From contig CANMNB010000021.1 in assembly GCA_947499145.1 (NCBI GenBank), positions 1-34,457 on the forward strand: a stretch of DNA of 34,457 nucleotides. The letters are read 5' to 3'. Position 1 is the stretch's first letter. Each line of letters starts with the position of its first letter. Positions 10,190-32,994 of the stretch are shown here, one piece after another. The notes under the pieces were generated by a model that was not told where the DNA came from, searched no databases, and saw nothing but the letters and a program-made list of their open reading frames with translations. This DNA comes from an uncultured Arachnia sp. (GTDB lineage Bacteria; Actinomycetota; Actinomycetes; Propionibacteriales; Propionibacteriaceae). The translations under genes were made by a program, and so were the position numbers.

Positions 10190-10366
10190 GTCGCACGGCA
10201 TTGATGGGGCCATCACCCCGGAGCTGCCGGAAGAACAGCCCACGAGGGCCCAGTAGAACCGGCCGCGAGACGAGATGAGCGGGGCGCTGTCGCGCCCAAG
10301 GGGGGTGGTACCGCGGGCCGTGAGGCTCGTCCCTTCAACCGGAGCACACTCAAGGCTGAAGAGGAC
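10190..10366 (+). promoter_or_regulatory. T-box riboswitch (isoleucine) upstream of ileS
   Basis: A tRNA-sensing leader. The T-box core GGTGGTACCGCGG lies at 10304-10316; its TGG-type bulge pairs with the tRNA CCA end. Downstream CGTCCC (about 10330) can pair with upstream GGGG as in the antisequestrator. The specifier is read as ATC at 10212-10214, in the 6-nt loop of the short stem GGGG/CCCC (10206-10209 with 10216-10219). A short stem I and the lack of a terminator with T tract fit the actinobacterial translational class: uncharged tRNA-Ile would free the GAGGAC ribosome-binding site before ATG 10370. Class and mechanism are from known ileS leaders; the motifs are seen. Confidence 0.87.
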
Positions 10367-10369
10367 CTG

Positions 10370-13300
10370 ATGACCACCGCTGGGTACAACGCCGTCGCCG
10401 CCTCCATCGACTTCCCCGCCATGGAGCACGACATCCTGCGCTTCTGGGCCGAGCACCAGACGTTCGACAAGACACTCGACGCCACCGCCGGCGGCGAGCC
10501 GTGGACGTTCTACGAGGGCCCGCCCACCGCCAACGGCATGCCCGGCACGCACCACATCGAGGCCCGCGTCTTCAAGGACCTCTTCCCGCGCTTCAAGACC
10601 ATGCAGGGCCGCCACGTCGAGCGCAAGGCCGGCTGGGACTGCCACGGCCTGCCCGTCGAACTGGCCGTCGAGAAGGAGCTCGGCTTCTCCGGCAAGACCG
10701 ACATCGAGGCCTACGGTGTGGAGGAGTTCAACGCCCGCTGCCGTGAGTCCGTACTCCGCCACGTCGACGCCTTCGCCGAGCTCACCGAGCGGATGGGCTA
10801 CTGGGTCAACATGGACGACGCCTACGTCACCATGACGCCGGAGTACATCCAGTCGCTGTGGTGGGCGCTGAAGCAGATCTTCGACGCCGGCCTGCTGCAG
10901 GAGGACTACCGTGTCGCGCCGTACTGCCCACGCTGCGGCACCACGCTGTCCGACCACGAGCTGGCGCAGGGCTACGAGGACATCCACGACCCGTCGGTCT
11001 ACGTCCGTTTCCCGCTGACCTCCGGGCCGCTCGCCGGGGACGTCGACCTGTTGGTGTGGACGACGACCCCCTGGACGCTGGTCTCGAACACCGCTGTCGC
11101 GGCCCACCCGGAGGTGGACTACGTCGTCGCGTCACACCCGGACCAGAAGTCCCTCGTCGTGGCCGAGCCGCTGTTCGACACGGTCCTCGGTGAGGAGTGG
11201 ACCCGCGGCCAGGTGATCCGGGGCCGCGACATGGAGCGCTGGACCTACCAGCGTCCGTTCGAGCTCGTGGAGTTCCCGGAGACCGACGGCGGCACCCACT
11301 ACGTCGTGCTCGCCGAGTACGTGACCACCGACGACGGCTCCGGCCTGGTGCACCAGGCGCCCGCGTTCGGTGAGGACGACATGCACGTCTGCCGCGCCTA
11401 CGGCCTGCCCTTCGTCAACCCCGTGCGCCCTGACGGTACGTTCGAGGCCGAGCTCGATTTGGTCGGCGGGCAGTTCTTCAAGGACGCCGACGTCGCTCTG
11501 GTCGCGGACCTCGCCGCCCGCGGACTCCTGTTCCGCAAGCTTGACTACCTCCACAGCTACCCGCACTGCTGGCGCTGCCACACCCCGCTGCTCTACTACG
11601 CCCAGCCGTCGTGGTACATCCGCACCACGCGCATCAAGGACGAACTGCTGCGGGAGAACGAGAACACCAACTGGTACCCCGAGAGCATCAAGCACGGCCG
11701 CTACGGCGACTGGCTCAACAACAACATCGACTGGGCGCTGTCCCGTTCCCGATACTGGGGCACCCCGCTGCCGATCTGGCGCAACGTCGAGGACCCGAGC
11801 GACCTCATCTGCATCGGCTCCCTGGCTGAGCTGGGCGAGCTGACCGGGCGTGACCTCTCGGACCTCGACCCGCACCGCCCGTTCATCGACGACGTCGAGA
11901 TCGTCCGCGACGGCGCCACCTACCGGCGCGTGCCGGAGGTCATCGACGCGTGGTTCGATTCCGGCGCCATGCCGTTCGCGCAGTGGGGCTACCCCCATGC
12001 ACCGGGCTCCGAGGAGAAGTTCCGGGCGAACTACCCGGCCGACTTCATCTGTGAGGCCATCGACCAGACCCGCGGCTGGTTCTACTCGCTGATGGCCGTG
12101 GGCACCCTGGTCTTCGATCAGTCGTCCTACAGCAACGTCGTCTGCCTCGGCCACATCCTGGCCGAGGACGGCCGCAAGATGAGCAAGCACCTCGGCAACA
12201 TCCTGGCCCCCATCCCGCTGATGGACGAGCACGGCGCGGATGCGGTCCGCTGGTTCATGGCGTGTTCCGGCTCCCCGTGGGCGGCGCGTCGCGTCGGGCA
12301 CTCCACCATCCAGGAGACCGTCCGCAAGGTGCTGCTGACGTACTGGAACACCGTCGCGTTCCACTCCCTGTACGCCCGGGCCGCCGGCTGGACCCCCACG
12401 GGCGACGCGCCGGCGGTGGCCGGGCGCCACGTCCTGGACCGCTGGCTCGTCTCCGAGACCCACCAACTGGTCGCCGGCGTGACGGAGGCCCTCGAGGCCT
12501 TCGACACCCAGCGCGTCGGCACGCTGGTCTCGGCGTACGTCGACGACCTGTCGAACTGGTACGTCCGCCGCTCACGCCGCCGCTTCTGGAATGCGGATCC
12601 GTCGGCGCTGTGGACGCTGCACGAGTCCCTGGAGACGCTCACGCGCCTGATGGCCCCGATCATGCCGTTCGTCACCGAGCGGGTCTGGCAGGACCTGTTC
12701 GTCCCGACGGTCGACGGCGCGGCGGCGTCTGTGCACCTGGCCAGCTGGCCGGTCGCGGATGCGTCCCTGGTGGACGGGTCCCTGTCCGAGGCCATGGCGA
12801 CCACGCGTCGGCTGGTGGAGTTGGGCCGCGCCGCCCGGGCGGAGTCGAAGGTGCGGACCCGCCAGCCGCTGCGCCGGATGCTCGTCCCGTCAGCGGCCCT
12901 GGGCGGCTTGCACGACGAGCTGCTGGCGGAGGTGCGCGCCGAGCTGAACGTCGAGTCCGTCGAGAGCTTCACGTCGGCCGGGGACCTCGTCGAGTACTCC
13001 GCCAAGGGCAACTTCCGGAACCTGGGCAAGCGCTTCGCGAAGCGGACCCCGCAGGTGGCCGGTGCGATCGCCGCGACGGACGCCGCCAGGCTCGCCGCCG
13101 AGTTGCGGGAGCGGGGGACGACGTCGGTGGAACTTGACGGGGAGACCCTCGAGCTCGGGCCCGACGACGTGCTGCTGACCGAGCGGCCGCGCGAGGGGTG
13201 GTCGGTGGTCAACGAGCAGGGCGAGACCGTGGCGCTGGACCTGGAGCTGACGCCGGAGCTGGTGCGCGCCGGGCTGGCGCGTGAAGTGGTGCGGCTGGCG

Positions 13301-17307: not shown

Positions 17308-17405
17308 GGCGCCCATACCGGGCGGGGGTTCTCACGGCCGGGGCGCTTACCCGTGCGCCGGGGACGGACGCACTATCGTGGGCAGGGCAGTCGTGAGGAG
17401 TGTGG

Positions 17406-18680
17406 ATGGGACGCATCGTTCAGAAGTACGGCGGTTCTTCCGTCGCGGACGCCGAGTCGATCAAGCGTGTCGCCCGGCGGATCGCCCGCACGCGTGGGGA
17501 CGGCCACGACGTCATCATCGTGATCTCCGCGATGGGAGACACCACGGACGAGCTGATGGACCTGGCGCTGCAGGTCTCTCCGCGCCCCAAGTCTCGGGAG
17601 CTGGACATGCTGCTCACCACCGGGGAGCGGCAGTCCGCGGCCCTGTTGGCGATGGCCCTGTCGGATCTCGGCGTCGACGCCGTGTCCTACACGGGTTCAC
17701 AGGCGGGTGTCATCACCACCCCGACGCACGGCAACGCCAGGATCATCGACATCACCCCCGGCCGCGTCGAGACAGCACTCCAGGAGGGCAATGTCGCCAT
17801 CGTCGCCGGTTTCCAGGGCGTGTCCCAGACGACGAAGGACGTCACGACGCTCGGTCGTGGTGCCTCCGACACCACCGCCGTCGCGCTGGCCGCCGCGCTG
17901 GGCGCCGACTACTGCGAGATCTACTCCGACGTGGACGGCGTCTTCACCGCAGACCCGCGCATCGTGCCGTCGGCGCGCAAGATCGACCAGATCGGCTACG
18001 AGGAGATGATGGAGCTCGCGGCGTCGGGTGCCAAGATCCTCCACCTGCGCTGCGTCGAGTACGCGCGGCGGGAGAACGTCACGGTCCACGTGCGGTCGTC
18101 GTTCACGGACCTGTCCGGCACCTGGGTGCTCCCCCAGGAAGAGGTAGAGAAGGGATCCCCCATGGAAGAGGCCATCATCACCGGCGTCGCCCACGACCGC
18201 GGCGAGGCGAAGATCACCATCGTCGGCGTTCCCGACCAGGTGGGCGAGGCCGCCGCCATCTTCAAGGCCGTCGCGGACCGCGAGATCAACATCGACATGA
18301 TCGTGCAGAACGTGTCACGCCTCTCCGACGTCGCCACGGACATCTCGTTCACCCTTCCGATGGCTGACGGGCGCAAGGCCATCGAGGCGCTCGAGGAGAT
18401 CCGGGACACCGTCGGCTTCAAGGAATTGCTCTACGACGACCAGGTGGGCAAGGTCTCGATCGTCGGTGTCGGCATGCGGTCTCACCCGGGCGTGACTGCC
18501 ACGTTCTTTGACGCCTTGGCCAAGGAACAGGTCAATCTGCAGATGATCTCCACGTCGGAGATCCGCATCTCCGTGGTGGTGGGCGCGGACGACGTCGACC
18601 GCGCGGTTCGGGCTGCGCACACGGCGTTCGGGCTGGATTCCACTGACGAGGCGAAGGTCTACGCGGGCACCGGGCGCTGA
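17406..18680 (+). CDS. lysC: Aspartate kinase, alpha subunit
   Basis: A 424-aa kinase phosphorylating aspartate, the first step to lysine, threonine, methionine and diaminopimelate. Seen: the kinase start [44 protein letters not shown] and the C-terminal tandem ACT domains (about 265-420), where lysine and threonine usually bind. ATG 17406 has GAGGAG 5 nt upstream. A GTG at 17400 overlaps this site and is rejected. TATCGT at 17374-17379 is a possible -10 box. An internal start gives a second product. Unlike many relatives, no asd gene follows. Confidence 0.96.
18162..18680 (+). CDS. Aspartate kinase beta subunit from internal start
   Basis: In-frame ATG at residue 253 of LysC, preceded by GAGAAGG about 9 nt upstream. 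It encodes 172 aa made of the regulatory ACT domains alone ([20 protein letters not shown]...). In Corynebacterium glutamicum and Bacillus the same gene yields an alpha2beta2 enzyme from such an internal start, and the corynebacterial beta subunit begins at the equivalent place with the same length. The product is inferred from the site and homology. Confidence 0.72.
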
Positions 18681-18942: not shown

Positions 18943-20505
18943 TCAGCGGCGGCGACGCGTGCCGAAGAGTCCACGGGCCACCTCAGCGGCGGCGGTCCGC
19001 ATGAATTGCCGGAACGCGGAGGACTTCACGACCTGTTCCACCAGCCCCGGGTCCTCCTTGCGACGCCGCGATGAGGTGCTGCGTCCTCCTGAGCCGGACT
19101 CCCGTTCCGCCTCCTCATCCGCCCTGCGGGCGCGCTCGGCGTCCTCCTCGATGCGCTTGACGAGGATCTCGTGCGCGGACTCGCGGTCGATGGCCTGGCC
19201 GTAGGTGCCCATCAGCGGCGACGCGGCGACGTGCTGGCGCAGCACGGCCTCGTCGGTCGGCGACATTGAGGACGTCGGCGCCCAGACCCGCGTCCACGCC
19301 ACCGGGGTGGGGGCGCCGTCGGGGTCCATGACCGTGACCACGGCCTCTCCCGTGCCGAGGCTCTGGAGCAACTCTCCCAGGTCGTAGCTGGAGCGGGGGT
19401 ACGTGTCGACGGTCGCTTTCAGCGCCTTGGCCGCATTGGGGGTATGCGCGCGGAGCTGGTGCTGGACGCGGCTGCCGAGTTGCGCGAGCACGTCGTCGGG
19501 GACGTCCTTGGGGGTCTGGGTGACGAAGAAGACACCGACGCCTTTGGATCGGATGAGCCTCACCGTCTGGGTAATCGCGTCGAGGAAGGCCGTGGAGGCC
19601 CCGTTGAACAGCAGGTGGGCCTCGTCGAAGAAGAACACGAGCTTGGGCTTGTCAATATCACCCACTTCCGGCAGCGTCTCGAAGAGCTCCGCCAAGAGCC
19701 ACATCAAGAAGGTGGAGAACAGCTCCGGCTGGGACGCCAAGTCCGGCAGTTCGAGCATGGAGACGACGCCGCGGCCGTCCGCGGCCACCCGCAGCAGGTT
19801 GGCCGGGTCGAACTCGGGTTCGCCGAAGAACACGTCGCCGCCGGATTCGGACAGCGTGACCAGGTTGCGGAGGATGACCCCGACGGTGGCGGTCGAGATC
19901 CCGCCGATCCCCTTGAGCTCGGACTTGCCCTCGTCGGAGATGAGGTAGCGCAGCAACTCGATGAGGTCCTTGAGGTCCAACAGCGGCAGTCCGGCCTTGT
20001 CGGCGTAGTAGAACACCAGCCCGAGCGAGGATTCCTGCACCTGGTTGAGGTCGAGGACCTTGGACAGCAGGACCGGGCCGAACGACGTCACCGTGGCGCG
20101 CAGCGGGACCCCGTGGCCCCGGCCACCCAAGGCGTAGAACTCGCACGGAAAGTCCGTCGGCGTGAACGGCTGTCCCTGAGCCTCCGCGCGGGCGAGCAGC
20201 TTCTCGCCGGCCTCAGCCGGGGTCGCCATACCGGAGAGGTCGCCCTTGATGTCAGCGGCGAACACGGGGACGCCGGCGGAGCTGAGGGCCTCAGCCATCA
20301 CCTGGAGGGTCTTGGTCTTGCCCGTACCAGTGGCGCCGGCGACCAGCCCGTGCCTGTTGAACATGCCGACCGGGATCCGGATGGGTGCGTCGACGACGGG
20401 CCCGCCGTCGCTCATCAGGACGCCCAGTTGGATGCCTTCCGCCTCGAAGGAATACCCCTCGAGGATGCTGGACAGGAGTTCTTCGGAAACGCTCGACTCG
20501 GTCAC
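18943..20505 (-). CDS. HerA-like ATPase (DUF853/YjgR type)
   Basis: A 520-aa P-loop ATPase of the HerA/FtsK superfamily, the type called DUF853 (E. coli YjgR). Walker A is GATGTGKTKT (residues 57-66). Walker B is LVFFFDEAHLLF near 286-297, followed by a conserved VTQTPKDVPDDVLAQLGSRV stretch. The C-terminal tail is charged and basic (AERARRADEEAERES, GTRRRR). GTG 20505 is chosen because it gives the family N-terminus; the frame is open further upstream but that part overlaps the divergent gene. HerA proper works with NurA in DNA end resection; for this subfamily the role is unproven. No nuclease gene is next to it. Confidence 0.9.
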   Translation of the reverse strand: MTESSVSEELLSSILEGYSFEAEGIQLGVLMSDGGPVVDAPIRIPVGMFNRHGLVAGATGTGKTKTLQVMAEALSSAGVPVFAADIKGDLSGMATPAEAGEKLLARAEAQGQPFTPTDFPCEFYALGGRGHGVPLRATVTSFGPVLLSKVLDLNQVQESSLGLVFYYADKAGLPLLDLKDLIELLRYLISDEGKSELKGIGGISTATVGVILRNLVTLSESGGDVFFGEPEFDPANLLRVAADGRGVVSMLELPDLASQPELFSTFLMWLLAELFETLPEVGDIDKPKLVFFFDEAHLLFNGASTAFLDAITQTVRLIRSKGVGVFFVTQTPKDVPDDVLAQLGSRVQHQLRAHTPNAAKALKATVDTYPRSSYDLGELLQSLGTGEAVVTVMDPDGAPTPVAWTRVWAPTSSMSPTDEAVLRQHVAASPLMGTYGQAIDRESAHEILVKRIEEDAERARRADEEAERESGSGGRSTSSRRRKEDPGLVEQVVKSSAFRQFMRTAAAEVARGLFGTRRRR

Positions 20506-20598
20506 GGGCACCAGCCTGCCACAGCCAATCGGGCCGCGGCAGGCCGGAAAACCGATTCCCGGCCTCGTGTAGCTTCCCACCGACGGCGCCGCCGTCGG

Positions 20599-20604
20599 TA
20601 GACT
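20599..20604 (+). promoter_or_regulatory. -10 box for leaderless small gene
   Basis: TAGACT (TANNNT) ends 6 nt before the GTG at 20611, with no Shine-Dalgarno between them. Confidence 0.5.
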
Positions 20605-20610
20605 GCCCGC

Positions 20611-20904
20611 GTGATCTTCAAGCGAGTGGGCGAGGGGCGCCCCTATCCGGACCACGGCTACGTCCAGAAGCAGTGGGCCGCGATCGCGCCCCACCAGGTG
20701 CGGCTGGACGAGCTGGTCACCACCAAGCGCACCCTGGACCTCGAGATGCTCCTGACGGAGGACTCCACCTTCTACGGCGACCTGTTCGCGCACGTCGTCG
20801 CCTGGCGCGGTGAGTTGTACCTCGAGGACGGCCTCCACCGCGCCCTCCGAGCCGCCCTCCAGCAGCGCCAGACCCTCCACGCTCGCGTGCTGGAACTGAA
20901 GTAG
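20611..20904 (+). CDS. Small conserved actinobacterial protein (VapB-like in databases)
   Basis: A 97-aa protein starting at GTG. It has a pattern conserved in many Actinobacteria: MIFKRVGEGRPYPDHGY, VRLDELVTTKRTLDLEMLL, TFYGDLFAHVVAWRGELYLE. Relatives are often labelled VapB-family antitoxin, but no toxin (PIN) gene is adjacent, so the label is doubtful. The DGLHRALRAALQQRQTLHARV helix could bind DNA or a partner. It is followed after 38 nt by the LytR_C gene, a pairing I believe is common in the phylum. Confidence 0.87.
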   Translation: MIFKRVGEGRPYPDHGYVQKQWAAIAPHQVRLDELVTTKRTLDLEMLLTEDSTFYGDLFAHVVAWRGELYLEDGLHRALRAALQQRQTLHARVLELK

Positions 20905-20942
20905 CCGTCCATGTCCCCCGAGCGAGCCTGAGGCCAATCCCT

Positions 20943-21545: not shown

Positions 21546-23000
21546 ATGAGCTCAGAACGCACCGCCTCCGCAGACATCGGCATCATCGGAATCGGCGTCA
21601 TGGGCACCAGCCTGGCCCGCAACCTCGCGCGGCACGGCCACGCCGTCGCCGCCTACGACCTCGATCCGGAACAGGCTCAGGACCTCGTCACCGACCACGG
21701 CTCCGAGGGGACGTTCGTCCCAGCAGCCGAACTCGATGACTTCGTCGCGGCCCTGCGAGCCCCGCGCGTGGCGATCATCCTGGTCCCGGCCGGAGCCCCG
21801 ACGGACGCCGCCATCGAGACCCTGGTGCAGCGCATGGACCCCGGGGACATCATCATCGACGGTGGGAACACGCTCTACACGGACACCCAGGCGCGCGGTG
21901 CCGCGCTGGAGGGCACCGGCATCCACTTCGTCGGGATGGGGGTCTCGGGCGGCGAGCAGGGTGCGCTGCTCGGCCCGTCCCTGATGCCGGGAGGCAGCGC
22001 CGAATCCTATGAGCGGATCGGTCCCATGCTGGAGTCCATCGCGGCGAAGGTCGACGGTGAGCCGTGCTGCATGCACGTGGGGCCCGACGGCGCCGGACAC
22101 TTCGTCAAGATGATCCACAACGGCATCGAGTACGCCGACATGCAGCTGATCGCGGAGGCCTATGACCTCATGCGCCGGTGCCTGCGCATGAAGGTCCCCG
22201 ACATCCGCGACGTCTTCGCGTCCTGGCGCGACGGGCACCTCGACTCGTACCTCATCGACATCACCACGGACATCCTCGGCCACACCGACCACGCCACCGG
22301 CAAGCCCTTCATCGACGTCGTCGCCGACGCTGCCGGCCAGAAGGGCACGGGCGCCTGGACGGTCAAGACCGCGCTCGATGTCGGCATCCCCGTACCCGCC
22401 ATCGCAGAGGCGACATTCGCCCGCTCCCTGTCCGGTGCAGCGCTGGAGCGAGTCGCCGTCGAGGAGTTGGACATCGATCCTGCCGTCACCCCGGCGGAGG
22501 GCGATGTGGCCGAGTGGGTCGAGGCGATCCACAACGCGCTGCTCGCGTCGAAGATCTGCGCCTACGCGCAGGGTTTCGACGCCATCCAGCTGGCCAGCGA
22601 GGAGGAGGAGTGGAACATCGACCTGGACCACCTCGCCCGCATCTGGCGCGACGGGTGCATCATCCGGGCCGGCTTCCTCAACTACATCTCCGACGCCTAC
22701 ATCGCGGACCCGGAGCTCCCCTCGTTGGTGGGCGACGAGTGGTTCAGCGAGCGCGTCGAGGAGTGTCTGCCGGCGTGGCGGAAGGTGGTGGCGCTGTCGG
22801 CGAGTTCCGGTGTGCCGGCACCAGCCTTCGCATCGTCGCTCGCCTGGTACGACGCCCTGCGCGCCGGCCGCCTGCCGACGGCGCTGATCCAGGCGCAGCG
22901 GGACTACTTCGGGTCGCACTCGTACAACCGCGTTGACAAGCCGGGCCGGTTCCACACGCGCTGGGAGCTTCCCGAGCGACCCGAGGAGCAGTGGACCTGA
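21546..23000 (+). CDS. gnd: 6-phosphogluconate dehydrogenase, decarboxylating
   Basis: A 484-aa enzyme converting 6-phosphogluconate to ribulose-5-phosphate and CO2 with NADP reduction, in the oxidative pentose phosphate pathway. Length is that of the long, homodimeric (GndA-type) enzymes. Motifs: cofactor loop IGIIGIGVMG (residues 11-20), DGGNTLYTDT, GMGVSGGEQGALLGPSLMPG, and catalytic lysine in GHFVKMIHNGIEYADMQ. The C-terminal RDYFGSHSYNRVDKPG closes over the substrate. ATG 21546 has TGAGGAAAG about 10 nt upstream. Confidence 0.96.
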   Translation: MSSERTASADIGIIGIGVMGTSLARNLARHGHAVAAYDLDPEQAQDLVTDHGSEGTFVPAAELDDFVAALRAPRVAIILVPAGAPTDAAIETLVQRMDPGDIIIDGGNTLYTDTQARGAALEGTGIHFVGMGVSGGEQGALLGPSLMPGGSAESYERIGPMLESIAAKVDGEPCCMHVGPDGAGHFVKMIHNGIEYADMQLIAEAYDLMRRCLRMKVPDIRDVFASWRDGHLDSYLIDITTDILGHTDHATGKPFIDVVADAAGQKGTGAWTVKTALDVGIPVPAIAEATFARSLSGAALERVAVEELDIDPAVTPAEGDVAEWVEAIHNALLASKICAYAQGFDAIQLASEEEEWNIDLDHLARIWRDGCIIRAGFLNYISDAYIADPELPSLVGDEWFSERVEECLPAWRKVVALSASSGVPAPAFASSLAWYDALRAGRLPTALIQAQRDYFGSHSYNRVDKPGRFHTRWELPERPEEQWT

Positions 23001-23237: not shown

Positions 23238-23325
23238 TGGCGGTGACGGAGGGATTTGAACCCTCGGTGGGTTGCCCCACACTCGCTTTCGAGGCGAGCT
23301 CTTTCGGCCGCTCAGACACGTCACC
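23238..23325 (-). tRNA. tRNA-Ser (anticodon CGA)
   Basis: A complete class II tRNA. Acceptor GGTGACG (from 23325) pairs with CGTCACC, discriminator G at 23241, and CCA is encoded (23240-23238). The anticodon stem CTCGC/GCGAG holds loop CTCGAAA, giving anticodon CGA for UCG codons. The long variable arm GTGGGGCAACCCAC and T-loop TTCAAAT are present. TAATCT at 23333-23338 on the minus strand could be its -10 box. Confidence 0.95.
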
Positions 23326-32921: not shown

Positions 32922-32994
32922 CGCGCTCGGAGGGACTCGAACCCCCAACCTTCTGATCCGTAGTCAGATGCTCTATCCATTGAGCCACGAGCGC
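32922..32994 (-). tRNA. tRNA-Arg (anticodon ACG)
   Basis: A 73-nt tRNA. Acceptor GCGCTCG (from 32994) pairs with CGAGCGC; the discriminator is G. The anticodon stem TCTGA/TCAGA encloses CTACGGA, so the anticodon is ACG, the substrate of TadA (A34 to I34). The T-loop TTCGAGT is present. CCA is not encoded. Promoter and terminator are visible on both sides. Confidence 0.95.

Follow-up and report, generated by a model that had tools for sequence, protein, structure and literature searches.

Does an exchanged first signature motif in isoleucyl-tRNA synthetase (IleRS) make an actinobacterium insensitive to mupirocin? The question was raised by the ileS gene on contig CANMNB010000021.1 of an uncultured Arachnia sp. 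(GenBank assembly GCA_947499145.1; Propionibacteriaceae), of which the whole stretch of 34,457 nucleotides was analysed, hereafter the window. The gene encodes a protein of 1047 amino acids with GTHH instead of the HxGH of class I synthetases. It was read as the housekeeping and apparently only IleRS, one of type 2 (IleRS2), of a member of the Propionibacteriaceae near Arachnia and Tessaracoccus, probably controlled by a translational T-box, in a cell that should be insensitive to mupirocin. This reading was given a probability of about 0.9. The role of the motif is known in print since 2023 and the inhibition constant (Ki) of an actinobacterial enzyme of the same clade since 2016.

The sequence-only reading had placed GTHH at residues 59-62, and codons, alignment and predicted structure bore this out. 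In gap-free phmmer alignments to solved structures, the motif fell on the HxGH of 1ile (T. thermophilus IleRS) and on the GVHH of 8c8w, an engineered P. megaterium IleRS2. HxGH was absent from the entire protein in a scan of all 1047 residues. Residues 60-78 formed a helix in the AlphaFold2 model (mean pLDDT 89.6), in which GTHH is predicted to lie at the N-terminal tip of the catalytic helix. The top structural matches of the predicted fold in VIA-align were P. megaterium IleRS2, and the whole chain matched an IleRS2 fold. Pfam domains were tRNA-synt_1, Anticodon_1 and DUF5915. The remainder of the enzyme had been described as intact, which held for the reading frame and the editing domain; the second signature motif, KMSKH, departs from KMSKS in its last residue, as is the rule in the clade.

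Curated model, tree, group motif and fold together identified the enzyme as a type 2 (eukaryote-like) IleRS. NKIL is a motif of IleRS1 and HYPFE one of IleRS2 (PMC4861432). The NKIL site of the window enzyme reads IEARVFKDLF and thus lacks the IleRS1 motif. Among the phylum loci described below, an NK motif occurred at this site in 21 of 21 HxGT, 13 of 39 HxGH and 0 of 82 GxHH loci. A FastTree phylogeny of 72 rows placed the window enzyme as sister to Arachnia propionica (support 95) among Propionibacteriaceae (98), all inside a clade of 19 rows (support 100) together with the Streptomyces griseus IleRS. IleRS1 rows, canonical and HxGT, were set off by a branch of 1.41 with support 100; FastTree readily joins long branches, and the HxGT outgroup did not form one side of any branch.

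Only one ileS was found in the genome, which comprises 26 contigs with an estimated completeness of 100 and contamination of 0.3. The IleRS model TIGR00392 returned one gene above cut-off; the three best of the next matches were ValRS, LeuRS and MetRS according to NCBIfam. An IleRS1 query gave the same gene as top match, with the remainder far behind. The gene had been noted as the only ileS in view, and the genome-wide search with both queries found no second copy, although the 26 contigs may leave a gap. Catalytic activity is therefore implied for the window enzyme. Membership in MupA or MupB, the acquired mupirocin-resistant IleRS, was rejected. The window enzyme is related to them in sequence, with 739.6 and 739.0 bits against the NCBIfam exception models NF000257 and NF000258, but stayed far under their cut-off of 1900 bits and, unlike them, is encoded by the only ileS found in its genome.

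That GxHH IleRS2 tolerate very high mupirocin, as the sequence-only reading had stated, agrees with published motif swaps in both directions (PMC10485003). This 2023 paper traced the mupirocin hyper-resistance of IleRS2 to G/AXHH, which it defined in 86 of its IleRS2 sequences. The natural ALHH enzyme of D. radiodurans had a Ki of 6.6 mM, with an 823-fold loss when changed to HVGH, and carried out the activation step without catalytic cost. Conversely, GVHH introduced into two HVGH enzymes gave gains of approximately 175- and 430-fold (PMC10485003, Table 1). A crystal structure showed the third-position histidine in a place equivalent to that of the first. The hyper-resistance was ascribed to a clash of this histidine with mupirocin, which was modelled because the Ki was too high for crystals.

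The closest measured enzyme was that of S. griseus, with a Ki of 10 mM published in 2016 (PMC4861432). Like the window enzyme, it is an actinobacterial IleRS2 with a swapped motif and KMSKH from the same clade of support 100, and the two are 69% identical (L066). The locus compared is that of S. griseus subsp. griseus NRRL WC-3645, and the assayed strain may have been another. The S. griseus enzyme differs in having been assayed and in carrying alanine instead of threonine at X (GAHH, read from L066); the enzyme is reported to be without tRNA-dependent pre-transfer editing (PMC4861432). D. radiodurans IleRS2 shares a natural non-canonical motif with histidine in third position (PMC10485003), but has alanine in first position and belongs to another lineage. 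Priestia megaterium IleRS2, for which structures of wild type and GVHH mutant exist (8c8u, 8c8v, 8c8w), carries canonical HVGH in the wild type with a Ki of about 1 µM, and its GVHH form was engineered and came at a catalytic cost (PMC10485003), whereas GTHH in the window is natural.

From the published effect of G/AXHH and the Ki of the S. griseus enzyme, a millimolar Ki is therefore predicted for the window enzyme. With the first and third positions of HIGH exchanged to GTHH in a type 2 enzyme, His61 would supply the transition-state contact that the first histidine ordinarily provides, as supported by the crystal structure of the GVHH P. megaterium IleRS2. Formation of the isoleucyl adenylate would be retained through His61. 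The side chain of the third-position histidine would clash with mupirocin, as modelled in the literature, and so bring about a millimolar Ki, which should leave the cell intrinsically insensitive to mupirocin. On this sequence-based prediction, the bacterium and many members of its family would owe their insensitivity to the mupirocin target as such and would need no acquired gene.

Cutibacterium acnes belongs to the same family as the window organism. Its minimum inhibitory concentration (MIC) was >1,024 µg/ml in six of six isolates and in ATCC 6919, compared with 0.09-0.125 µg/ml in S. aureus (PMC11977785). In that report, mupA at approximately 35% identity was present in four of the six isolates, the MIC did not differ, and the authors suggested additional factors. 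Target-based insensitivity could, in our reading, explain these values. One genome of the family (G217, L307; 2.5 Mb, with 61% G+C in the stretch fetched), possibly of C. acnes, carried GTHH, and its protein was 100% identical over 721 amino acids to the one that represents cluster P0121 with its 1,801 members. Intrinsic resistance through an atypical IleRS has been described in bifidobacteria (PMC3714544), and skin Micrococcus and corynebacteria are reported as intrinsically resistant (PMC8090955).

Several points weigh against the prediction. Among the open-licence papers listed, there was no assay of any GTHH enzyme, no kinetic or MIC value for this organism and no mupirocin study of Tessaracoccus or Arachnia. 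The measured natural non-canonical motifs are GAHH in S. griseus and ALHH in D. radiodurans. The X of G/AXHH was described as hydrophobic (PMC10485003), which threonine is not strongly; GTHH was nevertheless the usual motif in the family, at 43 of the 50 loci read. C. acnes bears on the question only indirectly, because the search gave no species name for the GTHH cluster P0121. Finally, the window has GYPHA at the HYPFE site. The S. griseus enzyme, which PMC4861432 counts as IleRS2, has GYPYK there, and HYPFE therefore does not mark this clade.

The distribution of the motif was followed in several sets of relatives. Of at least 586 named relatives the best 80 were fetched, and all of them carried GxHH (60 GAHH, 20 GTHH). 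Among the best 120 of 8000 proteins, 117 of the 119 others had GxHH; the two exceptions, in the order listed, were P0095 with GRRR in a disrupted N-terminus and P0119 with GTHP. The phylum and class samples were even draws from larger groups. From 149 genomes of the phylum, 146 motifs were read; the three others were the window's own, one that gave no match and one whose gene was truncated. GxHH was present in 82, HxGH in 39 and HxGT in 21; HFGN, GVHN, AVHT and an unreadable motif occurred once each.

In the class, 118 genomes were drawn and 116 had a match. Identities to the window enzyme were bimodal, with 86 genomes including the window at 59-71% and 30 at 39-46%. In the first group, 49 of the other 85 were read and comprised 31 GTHH, 13 GAHH and 5 GVHH, all combined with [KR]MSKH (39 KMSKH, 10 RMSKH). 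In the second group, 28 of the 30 were read, and all 28 showed HYGH and KMSKS. The class thus alternates between two types of ileS, GxHH with [KR]MSKH and HYGH with KMSKS, even within one genus. Compensation of GxHH by KMSKH was considered and rejected, because most GxHH loci of the phylum draw retained KMSKS. The joint occurrence of KMSKH and GxHH looks like clade history.

The family sample held 98 genomes, 97 with a match. Fifty of the 96 others were read, namely the 29 with the highest scores and 21 picked mostly among the lowest, which biases the motif rate. Of these, 43 were GTHH, one of them (L309) in another frame, and seven were HYGH. All seven fell into one genus code, g134 (G164, G200, G211, G220, G227, G234 and G241; L301, L297, L299, L296, L353, L294 and L295), which also included a GTHH member (G186, L129). 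In the tree, the family HYGH genes L294, L297 and L299 fell among HYGH genes of other Actinomycetes (98). The two types therefore seem to have been exchanged within the family, not mutated into one another, and the different species of g134 with GTHH or HYGH point to a natural replacement. This genus offers a natural comparison of both motif types without engineering and is the most useful addition of this analysis. The 43 GxHH rows of the tree required at least four label changes. One HIGH row (L205, f13) was nested in the GxHH part of IleRS2 beside GIHH rows, which suggests a natural reversion besides the published case in Deinococcus-Thermus.

In the strongest competing explanation, the swap exists but does not serve antibiotic resistance: it would be an ancient change in the active site, neutral or catalytic in its effect, and mupirocin insensitivity a by-product. 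It was considered only slightly less probable than even. GxHH is widespread in the phylum, the ALHH enzyme of D. radiodurans activates at no catalytic cost (PMC10485003), and [KR]MSKH accompanies GxHH in the clade of the window. Against it, PMC10485003 presumes that mupirocin selected the swap, which in its account was acquired at least twice and reverted once, and the repeated label changes in the tree point the same way. An enzyme of only moderate resistance, like HxGH IleRS2 with micromolar Ki, is improbable. Thr60 or other residues of the clade would have to offset His61, but the S. griseus enzyme reached 10 mM (PMC4861432) and, as less direct evidence, C. acnes grew beyond 1,024 µg/ml (PMC11977785). 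Decay, which the sequence-only reading had already dismissed, or a sequencing error, with an inactive enzyme or wrong codons, is practically excluded: class I synthetases normally depend on the first and third residues of HxGH (PMC10485003), but GxHH recurred in all 80 named relatives and in each of the 49 class relatives read at 59% identity or more, the frame is intact and the gene is the sole ileS found.

A T-box-like leader was detected upstream of ileS with a score below the gathering score of its Rfam family (Table 1), which was put down to a short stem I. The terminal loop of this stem, CCAUCA, presents the isoleucine codon AUC at 10212-10214, and the T-box core UGGUACCGCG lies at 10306-10315. 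Predicted energies were -19.0 kcal/mol for the T-box hairpin and -17.0 kcal/mol for the sequestrator hairpin. The two share bases from 10329 on, which form the 5' arm of the sequestrator. As judged from the sequence, the leader is probably a translational T-box that senses tRNA-Ile charging and controls synthesis of the enzyme. A translational type of ileS T-box in Actinobacteria has been in print as a proposal since 2005 (PMC1262725), and a biophysical study followed (PMC10651847); the window likewise has the core, and its single sequence is predicted to fold into a hairpin over the Shine-Dalgarno region upstream of ileS.

The core TGGNACCGCG was found upstream of ileS in 77 of 80 named relatives and 26 of 29 GxHH loci of the class. 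In the family, it preceded 41 of 42 GxHH loci and all six with HYGH. Among phylum loci with sufficient upstream sequence, 27 of 75 GxHH, 15 of 37 HxGH and 1 of 20 HxGT cases had it. A looser search of the last 40 loci detected a core in 10 of 20 GxHH and 20 of 20 HYGH loci. Being shared by GxHH and HYGH or HxGH loci alike and far from universal in the wider draws, the T-box is therefore not tied to the swapped motif.

Table 1. Features of the ileS locus and its surroundings, in window positions.
Feature	Position	Strand	Basis
ileS2, isoleucyl-tRNA synthetase type 2, 1047 aa	10370..13513	+	TIGR00392, 878 bits (cut-off 621.4)
First signature motif, GxHH in place of HxGH (G59-T60-H61-H62)	10544..10555	+	codons ggc acg cac cac
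K603-M-S-K-H607, second signature motif, last S to H	12176..12190	+	translated open reading frame
CP1 editing domain, residues 201-399	10970..11566	+	phmmer match to isolated editing domain 1wk8, 152.6 bits
T-box leader	10192..10337	+	Rfam RF00230, E 3.7e-6, 34.8 bits (below gathering score 93)
Predicted sequestrator hairpin pairing the Shine-Dalgarno region (10358-10365)	10329..10366	+	single-sequence fold
Aspartokinase-like gene	17400-18680	+	
HerA-like gene	18943-20937	-	
6-phosphogluconate dehydrogenase gene	21546-23000	+	

Other unusual motifs appeared among the phylum loci. According to PMC10485003, HXGH occurred in all IleRS1 of its set, and IleRS2 carried HXGH or G/AXHH; laboratory mutants of S. 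aureus had the fourth-position histidine changed to glutamine. HxGT was found here in IleRS1-type enzymes at 21 of the 146 loci (L091, L100, L102, L105, L106, L109, L111, L148, L156, L162, L163, L165, L167, L168, L171, L173, L179, L187, L189, L190 and L260). None of these genomes had a second match at E 1e-100 or better. Beyond PMC10485003, no open-licence paper on HxGT in IleRS was found. By their sequence, these enzymes could be naturally less sensitive to mupirocin.

Four further loci, in genomes of 90-97% completeness with one match each at E 1e-100 or better, had an altered KMSKS. L257, L258 and L259 combined GVHH with EMHYS, DMHYS or EFSKS, and L261 showed AVHT with EMHGS. The first lysine of KMSKS was absent from all of the best 120 of 8000 relatives of L258 (P0181-P0300; 112 E, 7 D, 1 V), with EMHKS as the commonest form, and 112 of these 120 had GxHH. 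Some were named and came from metagenome bins of Actinomycetota and Planctomycetota. Part of this pattern may already appear in Fig. 2b of PMC10485003. HxGT in IleRS1 and GVHH with EMHKS may be more novel than the GTHH finding. It is tentatively proposed, though considered less likely than not, that the signature motifs of IleRS are more plastic than published. Whole lineages would live on a sole IleRS1 with HxGT or an IleRS with GVHH and EMHKS or EMHYS, GxHH and HYGH types would have replaced each other in Actinomycetes even inside a single genus, and these could represent several independent natural escapes from IleRS inhibitors.

The surroundings of ileS look like an ordinary chromosomal region, with the genes listed in Table 1 and two tRNA genes at 23241-23325 and 32922-32994 (-). 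Elsewhere in the genome, the ValRS (L002 178-3057, contig C3) matched the NCBIfam exception model alt_ValS with 1477.6 bits at a cut-off of 900.
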